A DNA stretch of 64,000 nucleotides from Crocinitomix sp. (GCA_013138735.1 WTCE01000013.1:1-64000); one strand, 5' to 3'. Numbered from the stretch's first letter, positions 7,423-46,234 are shown. Translations and numbers: made by a program. Notes: a model not told the origin generated them from the letters alone.

Positions 7423-7731
7423 ATGAGTAGAAGAAAATACACAGCTCAATACAAAGAAAAGGCAATAGCGTTGAGCGAAGAAAAAGGTAATGTAGCGGCA
7501 GCTGCAAGAGAATTAGGGATTGGACCACCAATGATTCACCGTTGGAAAAAGGAGAAGGAACAATATTCTCAGAACAGTTTCCCAGGTCATGGGAAAGCAA
7601 AAATGACAGATCAGGAACGAGAAATAGATCGATTAGAAAAAGCGTTGAAAGATGCCCAACTTGAAACTGAGATATTAAAAAAGGCCATCAGCATTTTCTC
7701 CAAGAGCGACAAGGGAAGTTTCGGTTTATGA
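7423..7731 (+). CDS. IS3-family transposase OrfA
   Basis: This 102-aa protein binds the element's ends. Residues 5-50 form a transposase_8 helix-turn-helix (YKEKAIALSEEKGNVAAAAR followed by ELGIGPPMIHRWKKE). It is followed by a leucine-zipper-like heptad region, REIDRLEKALKDAQLETEIL, used for dimerisation. OrfA overlaps OrfB by ATGA. A slippery A-AAA-AAG run near its 3' end would allow the fused OrfAB transposase to be made by -1 frameshifting, as established for this family. Confidence 0.93.
   Translation: MSRRKYTAQYKEKAIALSEEKGNVAAAARELGIGPPMIHRWKKEKEQYSQNSFPGHGKAKMTDQEREIDRLEKALKDAQLETEILKKAISIFSKSDKGSFGL
7677..7683 (+). promoter_or_regulatory. A-AAA-AAG slippery heptamer for -1 programmed frameshifting
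   Basis: The heptamer is phased correctly in OrfA (TTA AAA AAG, zero-frame codons). A shift into the -1 frame gives KKGHQHFLQERQGKFRF and joins directly to MKQHKLKYPVEKM of OrfB without a stop. IS3-family elements are known to make OrfAB this way. Actual use here is inferred. Confidence 0.7.
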
Positions 7732-8594
7732 AGCAGCATAAACTAAAATACCCAGTTGAGAAAATGTGTAAACTTTTAGAAGTGAGTAGCAGTGGTTATT
7801 ATCATTGGTTAAAAAATGGGCCATCAAAAATGTGGTTAGAGAATGAAAATATCATATCGACAATAGAAGTGATTTTCGAAGAAAGTCATCAAAGTTATGG
7901 CGCACCAAGAATGGCTGTTGAATTAGAAAAACGAGGATTTAAGGTTTCAAGACCCCGAACAGGACGAATGATGAAGGGACTTGGAATTAAAGCAAGAAGA
8001 AGGCGTAAATTTAAAGCTACAACAGACTCGAACCACAACTATCCTATTGCTCAAAACTTATTAAATCGAAACTTTTCAACCTCAAGAAAAAATCAAGTAT
8101 GGGTGTCCGATATAACTTATATTGAAACATCAAAGGGCTGGGCTTATTTGACTGTTATTATTGATTTGTTTGATAGAAAAGTAATTGGATGGTCGATAAG
8201 TCAAAACTTGACTGCCGAATCAACTGTGATCAGAGCATGGTATATGGCTGTTGGGAACAGACCAATTAAAGATGAATTAATTTTTCATTCTGACAGAGGA
8301 AGTCAGTACGCTTGTGAAACGTTCAGAAACATTCTTAAAAGCTATAAATTGGTCAAGCAAAGTATGAGTCGAAAAGGCAATTGCTGGGACAATGCTGTAG
8401 CCGAAAGTTTTTTTAAGAGCCTGAAAACTGAATGGGTTTACAAAAATAACTACAATCATTTTTCTGATGCCGAAATGTCAATCTTTAAGTGGATAGAAAC
8501 TTGGTACAACAGGAACCGCAGACACTCGGCTTTAAATTACAAAACCATTAATGAATTTGAATTAGAAATAAATAATCATAATTTAGCAGCATAG
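7728..8594 (+). CDS. IS3-family transposase OrfB, DDE integrase core
   Basis: This 288-aa protein has the HTH_21 segment (HQSYGAPRMAVELEKRGFKV) followed by an rve integrase domain. The catalytic triad is visible as D in WVSDITYIET (about residue 127), D in LIFHSDRGSQYAC (about 187) and E in WDNAVAESFFKSLKTEW (about 225). The D-D spacing of about 60 and the D(35)E-type interval agree with IS3. The C-terminus YNRNRRHSALNYKTINEFE is the usual family tail. The gene is complete and overlaps OrfA by four bases. As an independent product it may regulate; as OrfAB it should catalyse copy-out transposition. Confidence 0.94.
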   Translation: MKQHKLKYPVEKMCKLLEVSSSGYYHWLKNGPSKMWLENENIISTIEVIFEESHQSYGAPRMAVELEKRGFKVSRPRTGRMMKGLGIKARRRRKFKATTDSNHNYPIAQNLLNRNFSTSRKNQVWVSDITYIETSKGWAYLTVIIDLFDRKVIGWSISQNLTAESTVIRAWYMAVGNRPIKDELIFHSDRGSQYACETFRNILKSYKLVKQSMSRKGNCWDNAVAESFFKSLKTEWVYKNNYNHFSDAEMSIFKWIETWYNRNRRHSALNYKTINEFELEINNHNLAA

Positions 8595-11232: not shown

Positions 11233-12009
11233 ATGAGAAAATCCTTATTACTTATTTTAACCTGTTTTCAACTCTTTAGTTGTAATAACACCATAAAAGA
11301 CTCAGAACCACCTAAAAATGAGGACATCTCTAAAATTAATTATCAAGAAAAAATTGACTCACTAAAAATTTTAGAGATTGAACTTGAAAAAAAGTGGGTA
11401 ACCTCTAAAGCTCTTGGAGAACCTGAAGAACACATAGATTCCTTAAGCGATCAGCTATCGATAGTCCTACATTTAAAGGATAGTTATAAAATGCAACTAA
11501 GGGGTGAATTCCCAATCATGATACAAACTGACACTAATAATTGCGGTCCTACTTGTATCAAAATGATTTCAGAACATTACGGTATTCATAGAGAGATAGC
11601 CGTATTTAATGAAATAGTTAAACTTGATTCAAATGGCACTACAATAGATAAATTAGTCGCTGCGGGGAGACAATTAAATTTCACGTCTGAAAAACACATC
11701 ATTACTTATAAGCAGCTTCTCGAATTGAACGCTTTTCCGTTGATCATTCATTGGAACAGTAATCATTTTGTTGTCGTGTATAAAGCCAATGAAAATAAAG
11801 TTTGGGTGGCTGATCCTGTACTAGGCCATGTGGAATATTCAAGGAGTTATTTTTGTAAACATTGGGTGCATCTTGATGGCCCTGCTATAGGCCACGGAAA
11901 AGCAATAACCTTTATCCCAAATGAGACATTTTATAAACGAGGACTGCAATTGGACTTAGATCAAGACTTATTTGATAAGTTTTTAACTGATTCGACGAAG
12001 GTGGATTGA
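11233..12009 (+). CDS. lipoprotein with a C39-like cysteine peptidase domain
   Basis: This 258-aa protein has a lipoprotein signal (MRKSLLLILTCFQLFSCNN, Cys17) and a coiled segment (residues 35-80). A papain-like C39 domain follows: catalytic Cys in TNNCGPTCIKMISEHYG, His in HWNSNHFVVVYKA and Asp in KVWVADPVLGHVEYS. The family (bacteriocin-processing peptidase) usually cuts double-Gly leaders inside ABC exporters. This one has no ABC or membrane domain and is lipid-anchored, so it probably acts in the periplasm. It could be a processing or degrading enzyme, or a catalytically altered relative. It lies 32 kb from the Gly-Gly precursor in this window. Confidence 0.75.
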   Translation: MRKSLLLILTCFQLFSCNNTIKDSEPPKNEDISKINYQEKIDSLKILEIELEKKWVTSKALGEPEEHIDSLSDQLSIVLHLKDSYKMQLRGEFPIMIQTDTNNCGPTCIKMISEHYGIHREIAVFNEIVKLDSNGTTIDKLVAAGRQLNFTSEKHIITYKQLLELNAFPLIIHWNSNHFVVVYKANENKVWVADPVLGHVEYSRSYFCKHWVHLDGPAIGHGKAITFIPNETFYKRGLQLDLDQDLFDKFLTDSTKVD

Positions 12010-38655: not shown

Positions 38656-39879
38656 TCAATGTTGCTTCGGTTTTGTGATATAACGTTCTTTATACCACTC
38701 TTCGTGCACATAATCTTCATTTCTTGCATTCATTTCTCGATTCTTAATGATCAGATGCGTTTTATCTAAGGTTTGATTTCGATATCCCAATATGTGCAAA
38801 AATTGTTTGGCCAAAAAGCGCGCTATTTTTTGGTTGACGATTAACGTACCTGGCATAGATGGATCCCTTCGGACACCAGGCATGAAACGCAGCATTCGAT
38901 CAAATCGTAACTTGCGAAATAAGCTAGAGAGTCTTAAAAAAAATGCTGGCACTCTTCTGATTTGAAAAAAGCCATCATTCCCTTGCGCTTGATAAAGCGG
39001 CATAAAAATAGTTGAATTCCCAGCTGCCTTTATGGGTTTACCATTGTTTTTAGCCAAGAGCTGATTTTTAATAATCTTTTGAAAATTGATAAAGCCAGGC
39101 TCCATTAAAAATCGTTCGTCCTTTTCTATTGCATAGCGATAATAGATCTCATAGAAATCACCTGATAAATCGCCCAAACTCTCAAAATAGTGGTCATAAT
39201 TTATGCTTTCTGCACTAATCGCTCCAGAAAAAACAAGTGATAAATAAGTGAAAGCAACATGGTTATCTACAGAAGCAATTGCATCATGTTGACCTGATTC
39301 AAATCCAAAAGACACATAACCCAATTCATTAATGTAACTTAATAATGGGCCATCTAAGTATTCTTCGATACCCAAAATTACCGGTGCAGGATATTGTTGA
39401 GAGAATTTCCGATTCAATAAACTATCATTTACGGTTAGGAAAGGAATGGTTTCGCTAGATGTAGTATGCAAATCCAAAAAATAAAAAGGCCCCGTTTCTG
39501 TTTCTAGCAGATTTTTAATGATTCCAAATATTTCTTCCTGTTCCTTTTCGTCTTCATTAGATGGCACAAACGATTCATCTTTTAATGCAGCCACCCGCTC
39601 ATGCGTCCAAACACGATTTAAATCTTCTTTATCAAAGCGCTTTGATCTTTCAAGTGCCCATAAATTTCCTGCAAGGGCGATAATAGAACCTTTAACTGGC
39701 ACCTTTTGTTCTTTCAACTCTTCCAATACACGGTTCAATGCAAACACGCCTGATGGTTCATTTCCATGAATCCCGCCAAAAAAAATCATGCAAGGTCCAG
39801 GTTCGGATCCTTTAATTCTTCCAATATGTCGTTCGACTTCCAGATGCTGATCTAGTGCTTCGCTATAAACTTTACTCAT
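38656..39879 (-). CDS. succinylglutamate desuccinylase/aspartoacylase-family (M14) protein
   Basis: This 407-aa protein belongs to the carboxypeptidase-like amidohydrolases. The zinc-site motif is IFFGGIHGNEPSGVFAL near residue 35 (HxxE), and a later ligand is YFLDLHTTSSETIPFL near 134. The C-terminal half is the family's usual beta-barrel plus helices. ATG 39879 was chosen over TTG 39885. It overlaps the 3' end of the upstream GCS2-CBS gene by 8 bases (ATGAGTAA), so the two are translationally coupled and probably act on related gamma-glutamyl or acyl-amino compounds, which is inferred. Confidence 0.8.
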   Translation of the reverse strand: MSKVYSEALDQHLEVERHIGRIKGSEPGPCMIFFGGIHGNEPSGVFALNRVLEELKEQKVPVKGSIIALAGNLWALERSKRFDKEDLNRVWTHERVAALKDESFVPSNEDEKEQEEIFGIIKNLLETETGPFYFLDLHTTSSETIPFLTVNDSLLNRKFSQQYPAPVILGIEEYLDGPLLSYINELGYVSFGFESGQHDAIASVDNHVAFTYLSLVFSGAISAESINYDHYFESLGDLSGDFYEIYYRYAIEKDERFLMEPGFINFQKIIKNQLLAKNNGKPIKAAGNSTIFMPLYQAQGNDGFFQIRRVPAFFLRLSSLFRKLRFDRMLRFMPGVRRDPSMPGTLIVNQKIARFLAKQFLHILGYRNQTLDKTHLIIKNREMNARNEDYVHEEWYKERYITKPKQH

Positions 39880-41743
39880 GATCAAATTGTAACAAATTTT
39901 TAACTGTAACGATACCTACCAATTTTCCCTTTTCAACAACAGGCAAACATCCAATACTATTCTCCTTCATCAGGGAAATTGCTTCTTGAATCCCCGTTGA
40001 AGTATTGACCGTCAACACTTCTTTTACCATAATACCAGAAACTGGCAGTAAGTTGATATCCTCTGGCGCATTTTTACTCAAATGCTGCAAATGCGTCCAT
40101 GTTAATAAACCAACAAGATTATCATTTGTATCAACAATTGGCAAATGATGAATATTCTTCCATTGCATGATTCGGAGAGTGAGTTCAGCCAAATCATTTT
40201 CCAAAATAGTTAATAAGCGCGTATGCATAATGTGCCCTACTGTACTGGCGGAACTATTTGATTCAGGAATAGCAATATCGTTGCTCCATTTATGAACCGG
40301 TTGATTCTGTCGTTGGTTCTCACAGATCGATTTTGTAAGAACAACCAATGCTTCATCACGTTTTAGTTTCTTTCTTAATTTGCGGTAACTTTTGACCATC
40401 CATTGCGAGCCCGTTTGACCAACTGTTCTTTCTTTGATTACATTCAATAATCTGTCAATATCTGTTTGATCAATGTTCATACGTTGCAAGCCTGCATGAG
40501 CTATTGGAAGTAATTTATCCAATACAAGTTCCTTCAATGGTATTTCTTCACCCATCCAACACATCACAGATTCTGATCCGTTGCGCGCGGCTTTGATGAA
40601 ATTTAATTTCACATCTTTAAAATCCATTACCTCAGGTAGGTTGTCAAACGCTTGTGGTCGTCCAACCATCAATCCAACCCAAAAAGCAAAGTTTGCCATT
40701 TCATCAATCACAGTTGGACCTGCCGGCATATAACGGTTCTCAATACGTACATGTGCTTTTCCATTTCCTACTCCGTAACAAGGACGATTCCATCTATAAA
40801 TGGTTCCATTGTGAAGGTTCAGCGCTTTTAATTTTGGAGTACGTCCGTCTTTTAAAACATCCAATGAATTTTCTTCAATCTCTTTTGATATTAATATTTT
40901 ATAACGCGAAATCTCATTTTTGAAAAGATCAATAATAGTTCCCTCTGCCCAACTGTCGCCAAATGTCACACGCGCTTGTTGATTCATCATAGCATGCGAA
41001 ACATCACGCATATCAATGCTTTGTTGTAATAGCGCAATACGTGTTTCATTCCACAATTCTCGTCCAAATAAAAGGGGAGCATTAACAGATAGTGCAAGCA
41101 CCGGCCCTGCAATTGCCTGTGCCCAATTATAACTGCTTACAAAATCTTCAGGCTCAATTTGAAGGTGTGTCTGAAAACTGGTATTACACGCCTCAAAAAG
41201 GATGGAATCATGCTTAATTGAAAGATCGTCAACACCAGTAAGATGCATTCGGAATTCAGACCCTCCTAATTCCAGCATCCTATCGTTTAATGCATAATAC
41301 CTTGGATTAGGTGTCATGAAATCAAGTTTCAATTCAGCCTTCGATATTGTTGGTAGAATCCCTGTAAGCACAATACGTGTATCATCTTCAGCCGCCGCCT
41401 TGTATGCTAATTCCAAAAGTTCTTTTAACTGCTTTTCCATTTTCGAAAACGCATTGGTTTTCAACTCAAAAGGATCAAGATTAATTTCAAGATTATAAAG
41501 AGCCAATTCTGTTGTGAAATGTGGATCATTAACCGCCTTCAATACGCCCAATGCTTTGTTTGATGGCCGCCAATTTTCGTTTACCAAGCAAAATTCTTGT
41601 TCGGCTCCAATACGAACAATGCCGCTTTCAATTTTACCCTCTTCGTACATTTGCTGCAAGGCTGCAATATCATCCAATAAATGTTTGATAAACTCAAGCC
41701 TTGTGCGGTCGTCTGTTTCTTTATTTATATTATGATCTCCCAT
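39872..41743 (-). CDS. GCS2-type carboxylate-amine ligase fused to a CBS-domain pair
   Basis: This 623-aa protein has an N-terminal glutamate-cysteine ligase (GCS2/YbdK-like) domain of about 490 residues, starting with VRIGAEQEFCLVNENWRPSN and including QTHLQIEPEDFVSSYNWAQA and HVRIENRYMPAGP. Two CBS repeats follow: LAELTLRIMQWKNIHHLPIV then DTNDNLVGLLTWTHLQHL, and GIMVKEVLTVNTSTGIQEAI then SLMKENSIGCLPVVEKGKLV and GIVTVKNLL. CBS pairs bind adenosine nucleotides and often regulate the attached enzyme. It shares an 8-bp overlap with the aspartoacylase-like gene. The substrate is not known; glutathione synthesis is not proven. Confidence 0.8.
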   Translation of the reverse strand: MGDHNINKETDDRTRLEFIKHLLDDIAALQQMYEEGKIESGIVRIGAEQEFCLVNENWRPSNKALGVLKAVNDPHFTTELALYNLEINLDPFELKTNAFSKMEKQLKELLELAYKAAAEDDTRIVLTGILPTISKAELKLDFMTPNPRYYALNDRMLELGGSEFRMHLTGVDDLSIKHDSILFEACNTSFQTHLQIEPEDFVSSYNWAQAIAGPVLALSVNAPLLFGRELWNETRIALLQQSIDMRDVSHAMMNQQARVTFGDSWAEGTIIDLFKNEISRYKILISKEIEENSLDVLKDGRTPKLKALNLHNGTIYRWNRPCYGVGNGKAHVRIENRYMPAGPTVIDEMANFAFWVGLMVGRPQAFDNLPEVMDFKDVKLNFIKAARNGSESVMCWMGEEIPLKELVLDKLLPIAHAGLQRMNIDQTDIDRLLNVIKERTVGQTGSQWMVKSYRKLRKKLKRDEALVVLTKSICENQRQNQPVHKWSNDIAIPESNSSASTVGHIMHTRLLTILENDLAELTLRIMQWKNIHHLPIVDTNDNLVGLLTWTHLQHLSKNAPEDINLLPVSGIMVKEVLTVNTSTGIQEAISLMKENSIGCLPVVEKGKLVGIVTVKNLLQFDHE

Positions 41744-42464: not shown

Positions 42465-43715
42465 CTAAGGTATCTCAACCGCTATATGATACATAATCGC
42501 TTCGGCCTTTTGATTGGTAATGACAATATTATAAGATCCTTCTTTAAGAATTAAATTTGCAGGTTCCGTATTGTTTTCTAATTCAATAAGGTCAATTGGA
42601 ACTCCATCATAAATGTCCTCATCAGACTTAAAAGCCATGATCATGACTGGGTAATCAATTTCGATTTTTTCTAGATCTATTGGAATACTTTTGTTTTCCG
42701 CGTTAAACAACCAATCCGGTCTTCCTGAAATATATTCAGTAATTGGATGAAGGACGACAAGATCTGCCCAGTAATTATTCTCCGAGTCATTTACCTCATA
42801 GTTTAAAGGAGATTTATTGGAGTCGAGTAAAACAATCGCCTCTTTTGGTTGAAATGCGTTAAGCGTGGGGTGGTTGAATTTTATTTCACTTTTCTCAGAA
42901 AAAGCAGTTTGATCAATCGTAAACGGATTGATTCCTGTATATTCTGTCAATCTCCCAGCCATAGATTTTTCCCAACTAAATAAGTCACCCTCATAGACAT
43001 GCGAAAACCCACAATGGATTAAAAACTTAGCATCAGGATTTGAACTGATTATTTTTTCAATGTTTTGGGCTTGGGCTATTTCCCGCTCTTTTCCATTTAC
43101 ATTATAGTCGGCAACTTCATAATCAAACAAAACATAACCAATCTCTAAAGCCGTTCTTACCAATTCACCGAATTGAGGATTTTTGGTATACGTTCCAGAT
43201 TCTTGAATTGGATATTTTCGACTATTCAATAAAGTGTCCTGATGCATTAAAGTTTCCAATCCCAAATGGGTATAGCCATTATCATATAAGCTTTGGAGCA
43301 AGGATTTTGTAAAAATCCTATGCGACGAATTATGATGTTCTTCATTAATGATAATGATTTGGTTTGATTTCGAAATTTCGCTAATATACTCCAGTGCAGA
43401 AGTTGCCGTGTATCTCGCACGAATTGAATCAAGTTCAGCCTCAGAAGGAGAACTTGGCGCTCTTTGAAAAGCTGAATCCCAATATTTTAAGGCGTTTTGA
43501 TGATCTCCTTTCAAGGCATATTCATCTGAAAAAATTTGATCCCTCCAATCGGCTGGGTACTTTTCGCATTCTTCCTTTATTTTTTGATTAAACTTATAAG
43601 GGGAATCAAAGGTAAGCGTGTCGATTTGTTCTTCTGCCATGTCTGGATTGGTAGAGCCGTCACCACATGAAAACAGAATTAAAAGGGGAGAGAAGGCCAT
43701 GATTTTTCTTAGCAT
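42465..43715 (-). CDS. lipoprotein with a ChaN/Tiki/EreA-type domain, downstream of the peptide cluster
   Basis: This 416-aa lipoprotein (MLRKIMAFSPLLILFSCGDG, Cys17) has a domain of the ChaN/EreA/Tiki group: IIIINEEHHNSSHRIFTKSL followed by YTHLGLETL, and near residue 230 KFLIHCGFSHVYEG (a GxxH motif). Clan relatives include erythromycin esterases, haem-binding ChaN and Tiki-type metalloproteases. The gene starts 26 bases after the stop of the SPASM maturase gene, in the same orientation. The spacing suggests one transcript and a role in processing, sensing or resisting the modified peptide in the periplasm. This role is inferred. Confidence 0.65.
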   Translation of the reverse strand: MLRKIMAFSPLLILFSCGDGSTNPDMAEEQIDTLTFDSPYKFNQKIKEECEKYPADWRDQIFSDEYALKGDHQNALKYWDSAFQRAPSSPSEAELDSIRARYTATSALEYISEISKSNQIIIINEEHHNSSHRIFTKSLLQSLYDNGYTHLGLETLMHQDTLLNSRKYPIQESGTYTKNPQFGELVRTALEIGYVLFDYEVADYNVNGKEREIAQAQNIEKIISSNPDAKFLIHCGFSHVYEGDLFSWEKSMAGRLTEYTGINPFTIDQTAFSEKSEIKFNHPTLNAFQPKEAIVLLDSNKSPLNYEVNDSENNYWADLVVLHPITEYISGRPDWLFNAENKSIPIDLEKIEIDYPVMIMAFKSDEDIYDGVPIDLIELENNTEPANLILKEGSYNIVITNQKAEAIMYHIAVEIP

Positions 43716-43741
43716 TGATTAATGAATTAATTAAATGTTTA

Positions 43742-44782
43742 CTACGAAATCCAGGCTGCTTTTTCTGGATCGTAATTACATTTTTTAGGTTTAGCGTAAA
43801 TATCCTTATCATCTTCTGTGTAAGCACGGCAATCGGTACAAACCAATCTGAATTCGCACGTTTTACACGTACTTATTTGATCCTTTGTGATATTCCAATA
43901 CCGTTTCAATTTTGGATCAAGGATAGCATCAGCAAGCGTCATTGAATTAATATTTCCAAGTGACTCTTTGAGCGAAGGGCAATTTTTAATTTCTCCTGTT
44001 ACGTCTACTGATACTTTTTTATACAAACAGGTGTTGTTATTTTGACCAATTGTATAAGTGTAGTAGTTTTTCTCAAAATAATACGGAGAAATAACACCGC
44101 ACGAACTACAATCATTTATGACAGTTGAACTGTATGTGAAATTTTTGTTACCTACTTTTTCTGTCTCAGCATCAACCATTGGGGCAGAATGAATATTAAT
44201 ATCCAAAATCCTGCAGTAATCTTTGCGGAGTAGTTCTTTTAAGTCGTCATGATGCTCAGGGGAAACGTACTTCATTATAATACTGACATTCCTAATTGCC
44301 GTATTATTGGTTAATTCAATAATTGCTTTGAAATTTGCAATGGTTATTTCATCATAAAAACGCAATTGTAGTGCATTACAACCTAACACATTAAGCTCGT
44401 TGATAATGTTTTTTATCGGATGATCCGTATCCTTATTAAAATCGATTATACATGAATTTATATGATAAGGCGATTCATAAGAGGTATCCATAATGACCTT
44501 AGAAATATTCACATCCTCTTTTTCAGTCAGGTATACAAACTCTTTCTGCACTAAAAACTCAAAGTATTCGCAAATCACATCATAACTGCCTTCAAGTTCT
44601 TCGTATGCTTTAAAGACTTTTTCAATTTGCGATCCGTTATAATCTAATAAAATGTCACACATTTCATTTGGAACTAATTCTAAGGTCTCCCTTTGAAAGT
44701 CGCAAATAGAACTGCGGACAATTCCTTTTACGGGAATACACCATTTGTGTAAATAAAAGAATTGCTGATCTAAATTATTCAT
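43742..44782 (-). CDS. gwsS: grasp-with-spasm system SPASM-domain peptide maturase
   Basis: This 346-aa protein is the SPASM partner of an ATP-grasp peptide maturase. The C-terminal third has the Cys-rich SPASM pattern: DCSSCGVISPYYFE, NNTCLYKKVSV, EIKNCPSL, then CKTCEFRLVCTDCRAY and KKCNYDP. These should bind one or two auxiliary 4Fe-4S clusters. The N-terminal part (residues 100-190) has the shape of a radical SAM barrel (NELNVLGCNALQLRFYDEIT), but the CX3CX2C cluster motif expected near residue 115 is not seen. The start overlaps the end of the 67-aa gene by 8 bases. It should modify or present the precursor at 46055. Confidence 0.88.
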   Translation of the reverse strand: MNNLDQQFFYLHKWCIPVKGIVRSSICDFQRETLELVPNEMCDILLDYNGSQIEKVFKAYEELEGSYDVICEYFEFLVQKEFVYLTEKEDVNISKVIMDTSYESPYHINSCIIDFNKDTDHPIKNIINELNVLGCNALQLRFYDEITIANFKAIIELTNNTAIRNVSIIMKYVSPEHHDDLKELLRKDYCRILDINIHSAPMVDAETEKVGNKNFTYSSTVINDCSSCGVISPYYFEKNYYTYTIGQNNNTCLYKKVSVDVTGEIKNCPSLKESLGNINSMTLADAILDPKLKRYWNITKDQISTCKTCEFRLVCTDCRAYTEDDKDIYAKPKKCNYDPEKAAWIS

Positions 44783-44978
44783 TATCGACTATTTTAGATA
44801 GAACAGGAACGGTACAGTAAACTTCGAATTTATCCGCTTTATATAGTTTCACTTCATCTGTATAAAGAAAACTTTCAAGTTCTGCTTCTTTAGTTGATTC
44901 AGTTGCTTTTAGTGGTTTCGTAACATAAAAGCTAAACTGTAAGAGGTGTTTGTTTTTCAATTCTTCAAATGAGATCAT
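44775..44978 (-). CDS. 67-aa protein between the two peptide maturase genes
   Basis: The gene overlaps gwsG by ATGA (44975-44978) and gwsS by 8 bases, so all three are translationally coupled. The protein, MISFEELKNKHLLQFSFYVT KPLKATESTKEAELESFLYT DEVKLYKADKFEVYCTVPVL SKIVDNE, is acidic. It has an early strand-like segment (HLLQFSFYVT) and a final one (FEVYCTVPVL), with no known domain that I recognise. A leader-binding or scaffold role (like the small RRE-type proteins in other peptide-modification systems) is a guess from position. Confidence 0.65.
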   Translation of the reverse strand: MISFEELKNKHLLQFSFYVTKPLKATESTKEAELESFLYTDEVKLYKADKFEVYCTVPVLSKIVDNE

Positions 44979-45976
44979 ACGCGACTATATTTTATTAATG
45001 TTTCGGCTACAATTTTATCAAGCTTCAAATTTCCCATATCTGAAATGCCCATAAATTGTCCAACTGGGTTAATTTCCAAAAAATAATAATCATCATCCTC
45101 TAAGGATTTTATTAAATCGATTGAACCACAAACCATATTCATACGTGCCATAAAGAGATGTAATTTCTCTTTGATTTCGTTAGGCAGGTCTATGATTTCC
45201 ATTCTATTTGGGTTTTCAGTATTATAATTTCGATAATCGATCTCTGTTTCCTTATTGATCTGAGAAAAAATGGCCGTGGGATAAATCACGCCATCCAAAT
45301 AGAACACCCTAACTTCATATGCTTTGCTAATTTCACCTTGAAAAAAAGAAGGAAAAAAAAGTTCATTCGGTAATTTGTCCAATGAAGTTGCATTGACTCT
45401 TTCTGTTAGTCCCGAAATAAATTCCTTCCCGATTTTAAAACTCTCAGCCTCTCGACATGCTTTTGTAATCGCTTTTGGGTGTTTTTCTAAAAATTGTTTG
45501 AGGTGCTTTTTATTATTGACGACAATAGAAGGTGGTGTTTTTATTCCGACCTCCTCAGCAATTTGTAAATTATTAAACTTATTTGTTGAATCGGACGGAC
45601 GGTTAATCCAATATACATCTCTTAAGGATTTTTCTATAAGACCGTATGTCGCCCAAGCTTCTGATCGCAAATATTTATTTAATTTGTTAACCAAAATAAA
45701 TTCTTCAACGTCCTTTGTCTCTACATCAACTATTTTATAACTATCAAAAGCTCTTCTGAACCAAACGGCGCTAATTTCAGAACTCTTAATATTTATTTCG
45801 CCCTCTACTATTTCAAATTCCCATTTGCCATTATCAAATTTGAATTGAATTTCAACATCTCCATTAAACAAATCGTTACCGTTTAACCGATAGTATTTTT
45901 CGTTCTTATGTCTCAGCCAATCAATTACATTATCTGTAGTACTCTCCGCTTCTTTTCTACTTAAAATAAGGATCAT
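44975..45976 (-). CDS. gwsG: grasp-with-spasm system ATP-grasp peptide maturase
   Basis: This 333-aa ATP-grasp enzyme is of the kind that makes ester or amide links between side chains in ribosomally made peptides (graspetide-type chemistry). The family shape is visible: MILILSRKEAESTTDNVIDW at the start; ATP-binding Lys regions HPKAITKACREAESF and GKEFISGLTERVNATSL; substrate strand AYEVRVFYLDGVIYPTAIFS; and the Mg-binding end YYFLEINPVGQFMGISDMG. Length and motifs agree with MvdC/MvdD-like enzymes and the GwsG family. The precursor gene lies 78 bp upstream. Confidence 0.9.
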   Translation of the reverse strand: MILILSRKEAESTTDNVIDWLRHKNEKYYRLNGNDLFNGDVEIQFKFDNGKWEFEIVEGEINIKSSEISAVWFRRAFDSYKIVDVETKDVEEFILVNKLNKYLRSEAWATYGLIEKSLRDVYWINRPSDSTNKFNNLQIAEEVGIKTPPSIVVNNKKHLKQFLEKHPKAITKACREAESFKIGKEFISGLTERVNATSLDKLPNELFFPSFFQGEISKAYEVRVFYLDGVIYPTAIFSQINKETEIDYRNYNTENPNRMEIIDLPNEIKEKLHLFMARMNMVCGSIDLIKSLEDDDYYFLEINPVGQFMGISDMGNLKLDKIVAETLIKYSRV

Positions 45977-45994
45977 TTGTTATTCAAAAATAAA

Positions 45995-46021
45995 TGAGAC
46001 CTCATTAAAAATGAGGCCTCA
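45995..46021 (-). terminator. hairpin between the precursor and maturase genes (possible attenuator)
   Basis: TGAGACCTCAT (45995-46005) pairs with ATGAGGCCTCA (46011-46021) with one mismatch, around a five-base loop. In the direction of transcription (minus strand) it is followed by a run rich in T (ATTTATTTTTG). It sits in the 78-bp gap between the precursor stop and the gwsG start. It could partly terminate transcription so that more precursor than enzyme is made. Confidence 0.6.
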
Positions 46022-46054
46022 AATATGGTTAATCAGTTATTGAATTAGCCGTTA

Positions 46055-46234
46055 CTATGCGATTTCTTTATTCAATGGATCTCCATCATGACCATCACAA
46101 TGCCAATGATCTCCACATCTAGTCATTAAATGAGAACGGCCACCAGTACCTTCTGCTGCACCACCTTTAATTTCGCTATAACTTTCTTTTTTCAACTCAT
46201 TTGCTGAAAATAAATCAAATTTTAAACTCTTCAT
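46055..46234 (-). CDS. precursor peptide of the grasp-with-spasm system, 59 aa
   Basis: The ORF reads MKSLKFDLFSANELKKESYS EIKGG (leader, 25 residues) followed by AAEGTGGRSHLMTRCGDHWH CDGHDGDPLNKEIA (core, 34 residues). The leader has the L-x-x-x-E-L-x-K-x-S-Y-x-x-I-K-G-G shape known from Bacteroidota modified-peptide precursors with double-Gly cleavage sites. The core holds Ser/Thr, many acidic residues, two Cys and four His, so cross-linking and metal binding are plausible. It lies first in the cluster in the same orientation as the ATP-grasp and SPASM genes. ATG 46234 has an AT-rich leader with no strong ribosome-binding site. Confidence 0.85.
   Translation of the reverse strand: MKSLKFDLFSANELKKESYSEIKGGAAEGTGGRSHLMTRCGDHWHCDGHDGDPLNKEIA

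Follow-up and report, generated by a model that had tools for sequence, protein, structure and literature searches.

The window analysed here is the whole stretch of 64,000 nucleotides from Crocinitomix sp. (GCA_013138735.1 WTCE01000013.1:1-64000). On its minus strand, positions 46234-42465 hold a grasp-with-spasm graspetide cluster, a genuine member of the grasp-with-spasm/branch 5 graspetides. As the first-pass annotation had proposed, the cluster comprises five open reading frames, all of which were confirmed at the given positions and in the given order, with GwsG and GwsS scoring above the NCBI cut-offs. Its features are as follows:

46055-46234, minus strand: RiPP precursor of 59 aa (first of 450 by leader profile; homologues in Aquimarina)
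45995-46021, minus strand: hairpin of 12 bp followed by a T run (z -4.9; counterparts at Aquimarina and other loci)
44975-45976, minus strand: GwsG, ATP-grasp graspetide synthetase with an MvdD-type pre-ATP-grasp domain (TIGR04192, PF21068)
44775-44978, minus strand: partner protein of 67 aa at the "LPL" position (profile of small proteins from the same position)
43742-44782, minus strand: GwsS, SPASM protein (TIGR04193; AlphaFold2 (AF2) model; fold matches)
42465-43715, minus strand: lipobox protein with a predicted erythromycin-esterase/ChaN (Tiki superfamily) domain and an Ig/FnIII-like sandwich (AF2 model; weak PF04187 matches in the family)

The GwsG stop and the start of the 67-aa gene overlap by 4 bases, the stop of the latter and the GwsS start by 8 bases, and the lipoprotein gene begins 26 bases past GwsS; hence, the four genes from GwsG to the lipoprotein look like one coupled unit. 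The order recurs across loci: GwsS follows shortly after GwsG in 144 of 153 cases, and 138 of these 144 pairs have a small open reading frame between the two. This architecture, inclusive of the 67-aa protein, is already published (PMC8939145). Within the literature searched, neither a chemistry nor a product has been reported for any grasp-with-spasm system. Such clusters are common in Bacteroidota: of 395 genomes sampled from across the class, 28 encode a GwsS that scores above cut-off. Relatives of GwsG were also seen outside Bacteroidota (loci L173, L175, L180, L185, L200 and L203), on contigs labelled Acidobacteria, Gemmatimonadetes, Aminicenantes and Thermoanaerobaculum. Elsewhere in the window, a glutamate-cysteine-ligase-like part (weak match) is fused to CBS domains at 39872-41743 (minus strand), and a pair of open reading frames at 7423-8594 (plus strand) resembles an IS3-type transposase, as judged by eye from the translation.

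GwsG is assigned to TIGR04192 marginally, with 232.1 bits against a cut-off of 230 (only 2 bits above). It carries the MvdD pre-ATP-grasp domain and aligns over its full length with AMdnB (7m4s), 5ig8 and CdnC (7mgv). K133, K172, D287, E301 and N303 are invariant in 28 GwsG sequences and, by reference to the ATP-grasp family, are putative ATP/Mg binders, which would thus be intact in the window protein. A scan of the genome contigs with the single GwsG sequence returned no relatives; a profile scan found them. The closest GwsG belongs to Aquimarina macrocephali (52% identity), followed by three other Aquimarina genomes (45%), and in the tree the window protein groups with these Aquimarina proteins (support 100/98). 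Since the genome of the window belongs to another family, the cluster has probably moved between families.

The precursor (46055-46234) consists of the leader MKSLKFDLFSANELKKESYSEIKGG, ending in YSEIKGG, and the core AAEGTGGRSHLMTRCGDHWHCDGHDGDPLNKEIA with two Cys and four His. The leaders of 125 precursors at other loci, without that of the window, were combined into a profile. Among the 450 open reading frames of the window the precursor ranks first by this profile (16.6 bits; runner-up 8.4), and its score was reached by none of 1000 shuffled leaders. The precursor is real and more than a chance open reading frame. The first-pass annotation had called it too short for standard gene calls, which is not borne out: 59 codons do not fall below the usual length limits of gene callers. 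Against TIGR04149 it scores 14.8 bits, below the cut-off of 25, and it has no match to the microviridin model NF033738. It shows the GG leader and the Thr/Ser and Asp/Glu residues in the core by which branch 5 precursors are defined (PMC8939145).

Homologous short peptides beside other GwsG/GwsS pairs, proposed in the first-pass annotation as a check, were found in Aquimarina: in four genomes, one or two short peptides lie directly upstream of each of the closest GwsG genes and align with the window precursor. A further homologous copy is located at L164:319-489. D47, G48 and D52 are invariant across seven aligned precursors, and the motif [CHT]D[GN][HDE]xxD[PD] is present in the core of the window and in the five distinct cores from Aquimarina. 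Of 20000 shuffled versions of the window core, 11 contain it, a figure to be read with the motif having been defined after viewing the alignment. Thr38 is matched in some relatives only (L161 and L162a have no Thr there), and donor residues are poorly conserved. Compared on its own with 127 other cores by local alignment, the window core gives weak scores, the best being with Chitinophaga (L193), a score that 3 of 300 shuffles reach; the cores from Aquimarina are not outstanding in this comparison. That these are homologous is concluded from the alignment over the full length, the gene neighbourhood and the tree. Precursors of Chitinophaga, Olivibacter and Pedobacter, some belonging to an adjacent GwsG clade, contain similar stretches (GDQFFCDH, DGHFYCDH and GDHCCTDNKPDP); this likeness is weak and suggestive only. 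The core is clearly common only to the window and a few Aquimarina clusters. A precursor profile run against 349 genomes of one Flavobacteriia family returned chance-level matches only (best E 0.015), and against 66 genomes of the genus Aquimarina it gave no strong matches beyond the clusters already known.

The gap between precursor and GwsG measures 78 bases and holds the hairpin with its T run. Equally strong hairpins occur at the same place in Aquimarina, unrelated to that of the window. Stems of at least 11 pairs were found in 33 of 66 precursor-to-GwsG gaps (L087-L240 and the window), with 0.1 expected from shuffles. Long perfect hairpins thus occupy half of the grasp-with-spasm gaps without evident sequence similarity. 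The element may act as a terminator-like attenuator or as a stabiliser of the 3′ end; in the simplest reading, partial termination or mRNA protection would yield more precursor than enzyme. No excess of sigma-70-like promoters was found, and a TAnnTTTG box was not found upstream of the precursor.

Published branch 5 loci contain "LPL" proteins encoded directly upstream of the SPASM gene, for which a PqqD-like nature has been considered (PMC8939145). The 67-aa protein lies at this position without containing the literal sequence LPL (it has HLLQF). Against a profile made from 121-125 of the proteins encoded there in other loci, it scores 14.5-16.6 bits, a value reached by none of 1000 shuffles, and its Aquimarina counterparts are clear homologues.

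The unexpected part of the locus is GwsS, which combines an RRE and a radical-SAM fold, as predicted, with the lack of a SAM-cluster motif in all 151 homologues sampled. The protein matches TIGR04193 with 275.3 bits (cut-off 175) and the SPASM model TIGR04085 with 29.6 bits (cut-off 27), and contains 8 Cys. A CxxxCxxC motif within the first 200 residues was found in 0 of 151 GwsS homologues and a PF04055 match in 0 of 72, 40 of which match the Pfam SPASM domain. By its sequence, GwsS is hence not a canonical radical-SAM enzyme. None of the 151 sequences lacks C306, C309, C315 or C335. Another four, C228, C252, C268 and C318, occur together in 102 sequences and are missing together in 46, with a mixed pattern in 3. 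Such all-or-none behaviour would be expected of sets that each hold one Fe-S cluster. The AF2 model (pLDDT 95.1, pTM 0.89) matches RRE domains at residues 7-92 (TbiB1 5v1v, Z 9.5, rmsd 2.9 over 82; TruD, Z 8.0; MccB, Z 7.5) and TigE, PqqE, CteB, SuiB and anSME at about 100-339 (Z 10-12; about 12 for TigE, PqqE and CteB). It confidently predicts an N-terminal, leader-binding RRE, a radical-SAM fold and a C-terminal SPASM domain. GwsS looks like an enzyme of the SuiB/CteB type in which RRE and SPASM Cys were kept and the SAM cluster was lost. In the literature the protein is called a radical SAM enzyme, with thioethers suggested (PMC8939145), or described as SPASM-containing (PMC13097080); the NCBI name of TIGR04193 omits "radical SAM". 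The first-pass annotation had considered a cross-linked product with a -2 Da shift, and the absence of both CxxxCxxC and PF04055 makes such a radical-SAM cross-link by GwsS unlikely.

GwsS proteins fall into two Cys classes, with 8 and with 4 Cys. The core contains Cys in 27 of 31 loci with a 4-Cys GwsS and in 39 of 65 with an 8-Cys GwsS (p 0.009, relatedness not corrected). The idea that a two-cluster GwsS goes with Cys in the core was rejected, as the trend is opposite. Another GwsS-like protein of the same genome (L086:7409-8512, contig C31) scores 103 bits against TIGR04193, below cut-off, and no GwsG was recognised beside it.

The first-pass annotation had described the last protein as a ChaN/Tiki-like lipoprotein, and the predicted fold agrees. 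In the AF2 model (pLDDT 87.6), residues of about 91-325 match EreC (Z 16.1) and ChaN (Z 14.2), which gives the protein a predicted erythromycin-esterase/ChaN (Tiki) fold, with an Ig/FnIII-like sandwich C-terminal to it. Its match to PF04187 (13.6 bits) is below the gathering score of 27.7; 7 of 11 family members match this model weakly (best 9e-4). NExHHxPxHR and GxxHxxE are conserved stretches of the family, which occurs in 13 loci including the window (12 other GwsG loci) and lies directly behind GwsS in 9. It is suggestive that a predicted esterase fold accompanies a system predicted to form esters. Other lipoproteins, of about 280 aa and with the sequence RYTDNNxVY, are located near GwsS loci of Aquimarina and of another cluster of the window's genome (L161:8605-9462, L163:9120-9977, L085:8593-9423) and have no Pfam or NCBIfam match. 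Behind one Aquimarina cluster lies a DUF6624 protein (L162:8479-9498, 82.7 bits); DUF6624 has been reported with other graspetide groups (PMC13097080).

A C39 peptidase or exporter was not found within the cluster. The peptidase that cleaves at GG is usually encoded outside ATP-grasp loci (PMC8939145), and C39 domains are present in the genome, one in an open frame of 749 aa and three in shorter frames. One of these three is in the window itself, at 11233-12009 on the plus strand (PF03412, 97.6 bits); the protein has a signal resembling that of lipoproteins and lacks a transporter part. A separate, true microviridin-type cluster is located on contig C70 of the same genome (L242:5269-8116). Its two precursors score 68.6 and 72.9 bits against NF033738, and its MvdC/MvdD-like ligases are arranged in tandem.

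Overall, the data are best explained by the formation of graspetide ester or amide rings by GwsG with GwsS as leader-binding partner, to which we assign a probability of about 0.6. Sequence and models support the genes, families, conservation and predicted folds, and we infer the ring pattern, the scaffold role, the protease and the role of the lipoprotein. The precursor leader would be bound by the N-terminal RRE of GwsS, probably helped by the 67-aa protein. GwsG would then activate Asp/Glu side chains of the core with ATP and couple these to the side chains of Ser/Thr (or Lys). Rings would most likely link Thr38 and/or Ser34 to Asp47 and Asp52 as omega-esters (or amides), at -18 Da each. 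GwsS would keep its radical-SAM-like fold and the SPASM Cys for Fe-S clusters, and is most likely a partner or scaffold instead of a radical enzyme, since it is without the cluster motif that cleaves SAM. A C39-type peptidase encoded elsewhere in the genome may cut after GG, and the lipoprotein with the predicted Ere/ChaN fold may act on the product outside the cytoplasm, by ester opening, trimming or immunity.

A different role for GwsS would be that of a working maturase, adding a second modification (e.g. at Cys) via its SPASM Fe-S clusters or an unusually ligated SAM, with a product that is both ester- and Cys-modified. The complete sets of SPASM Cys, the presence of Cys in 80 of 127 cores and the published view of GwsS as a radical SAM enzyme forming thioethers speak for it; however, the lack of CxxxCxxC and PF04055 in the homologues and the occurrence of Cys-free cores beside a two-cluster GwsS in 26 of 65 loci do not, and we consider it unlikely. 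It is somewhat unlikely that the peptide is a microviridin-like protease inhibitor carrying esters only, with GwsS needed merely for stability. GwsG is related to the microviridin ligases, and all graspetides characterised as of 2022 were protease inhibitors (PMC8939145), but the precursor has no NF033738 match and the genome holds its microviridin cluster separately.

The His/Cys/Asp-rich core had been taken in the first-pass annotation as a hint of metal binding. That the peptide mainly binds a metal (Zn, Cu, Fe or Ca), with modification being secondary, would suit the CxxHxHCxxH spacing of the window core, its His content (12% compared to 1.8% on average), and the variation among relatives at position 46 (C/H interchange) and 49 (D/E/H), which would be compatible with metal ligands. 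However, the Aquimarina relatives do not strictly conserve Cys40, Cys46, His43 and His45, whereas they do conserve the two Asp. This speaks for Asp residues as graspetide acceptors more than for a metal site that is obligatory. The peptide may still bind metal, but we regard a mainly metal-binding peptide as very unlikely.

Returning to ring formation by GwsG with GwsS as partner, a more specific version may be put forward tentatively: GwsS could be a SAM-independent, Fe-S-binding RRE scaffold that evolved from a radical enzyme of the SuiB/CteB type and is indispensable to GwsG, and the Ere-fold lipoprotein could be an esterase dedicated to the macrolactone, opening or trimming it outside the cell for immunity or release. 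As the radical-SAM motif is absent in all GwsS examined, the search by mass spectrometry shifts to ring closures of -18 Da formed with a required partner, in place of cross-links of -2 Da. With this locus it could be tested cheaply whether a radical-SAM fold that has no SAM cluster can be the leader-binding scaffold of an ATP-grasp ligase.

Compared with the grasp-with-spasm system of NCBIfam (TIGR04192/TIGR04193), the window shares GwsG and GwsS above cut-off as neighbours, a small protein between them and a GG-leader precursor; it differs by the additional lipoprotein of predicted Ere/ChaN fold and by a core that lies below the cut-off of every NCBIfam/Pfam model. Graspetide branch 5 (PMC8939145) and the SPASM-associated group 14 (PMC13097080) likewise combine a Bacteroidetes ATP-grasp enzyme, a SPASM protein, an LPL protein and diverse Cys-containing GG precursors; the SPASM protein of branch 5 is, however, called a radical SAM enzyme, and GwsS of the window is without the SAM-cluster motif. 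RRE, barrel and SPASM fold, as predicted for GwsS, are those of the RRE-radical SAM-SPASM maturases of the SuiB/CteB/TigE type, from which the missing CxxxCxxC cluster motif sets it apart. The lipoprotein domain resembles EreC and ChaN in its predicted fold, but is under the Pfam gathering score. In rosaritide biosynthesis, the graspetide ligase MirB needs the partner MirC (PMC13097080). MirC is a PpiC-type isomerase and MirB belongs to another ligase group, but both systems would pair a ligase with a partner protein and use Ser/Thr donors and Asp acceptors.
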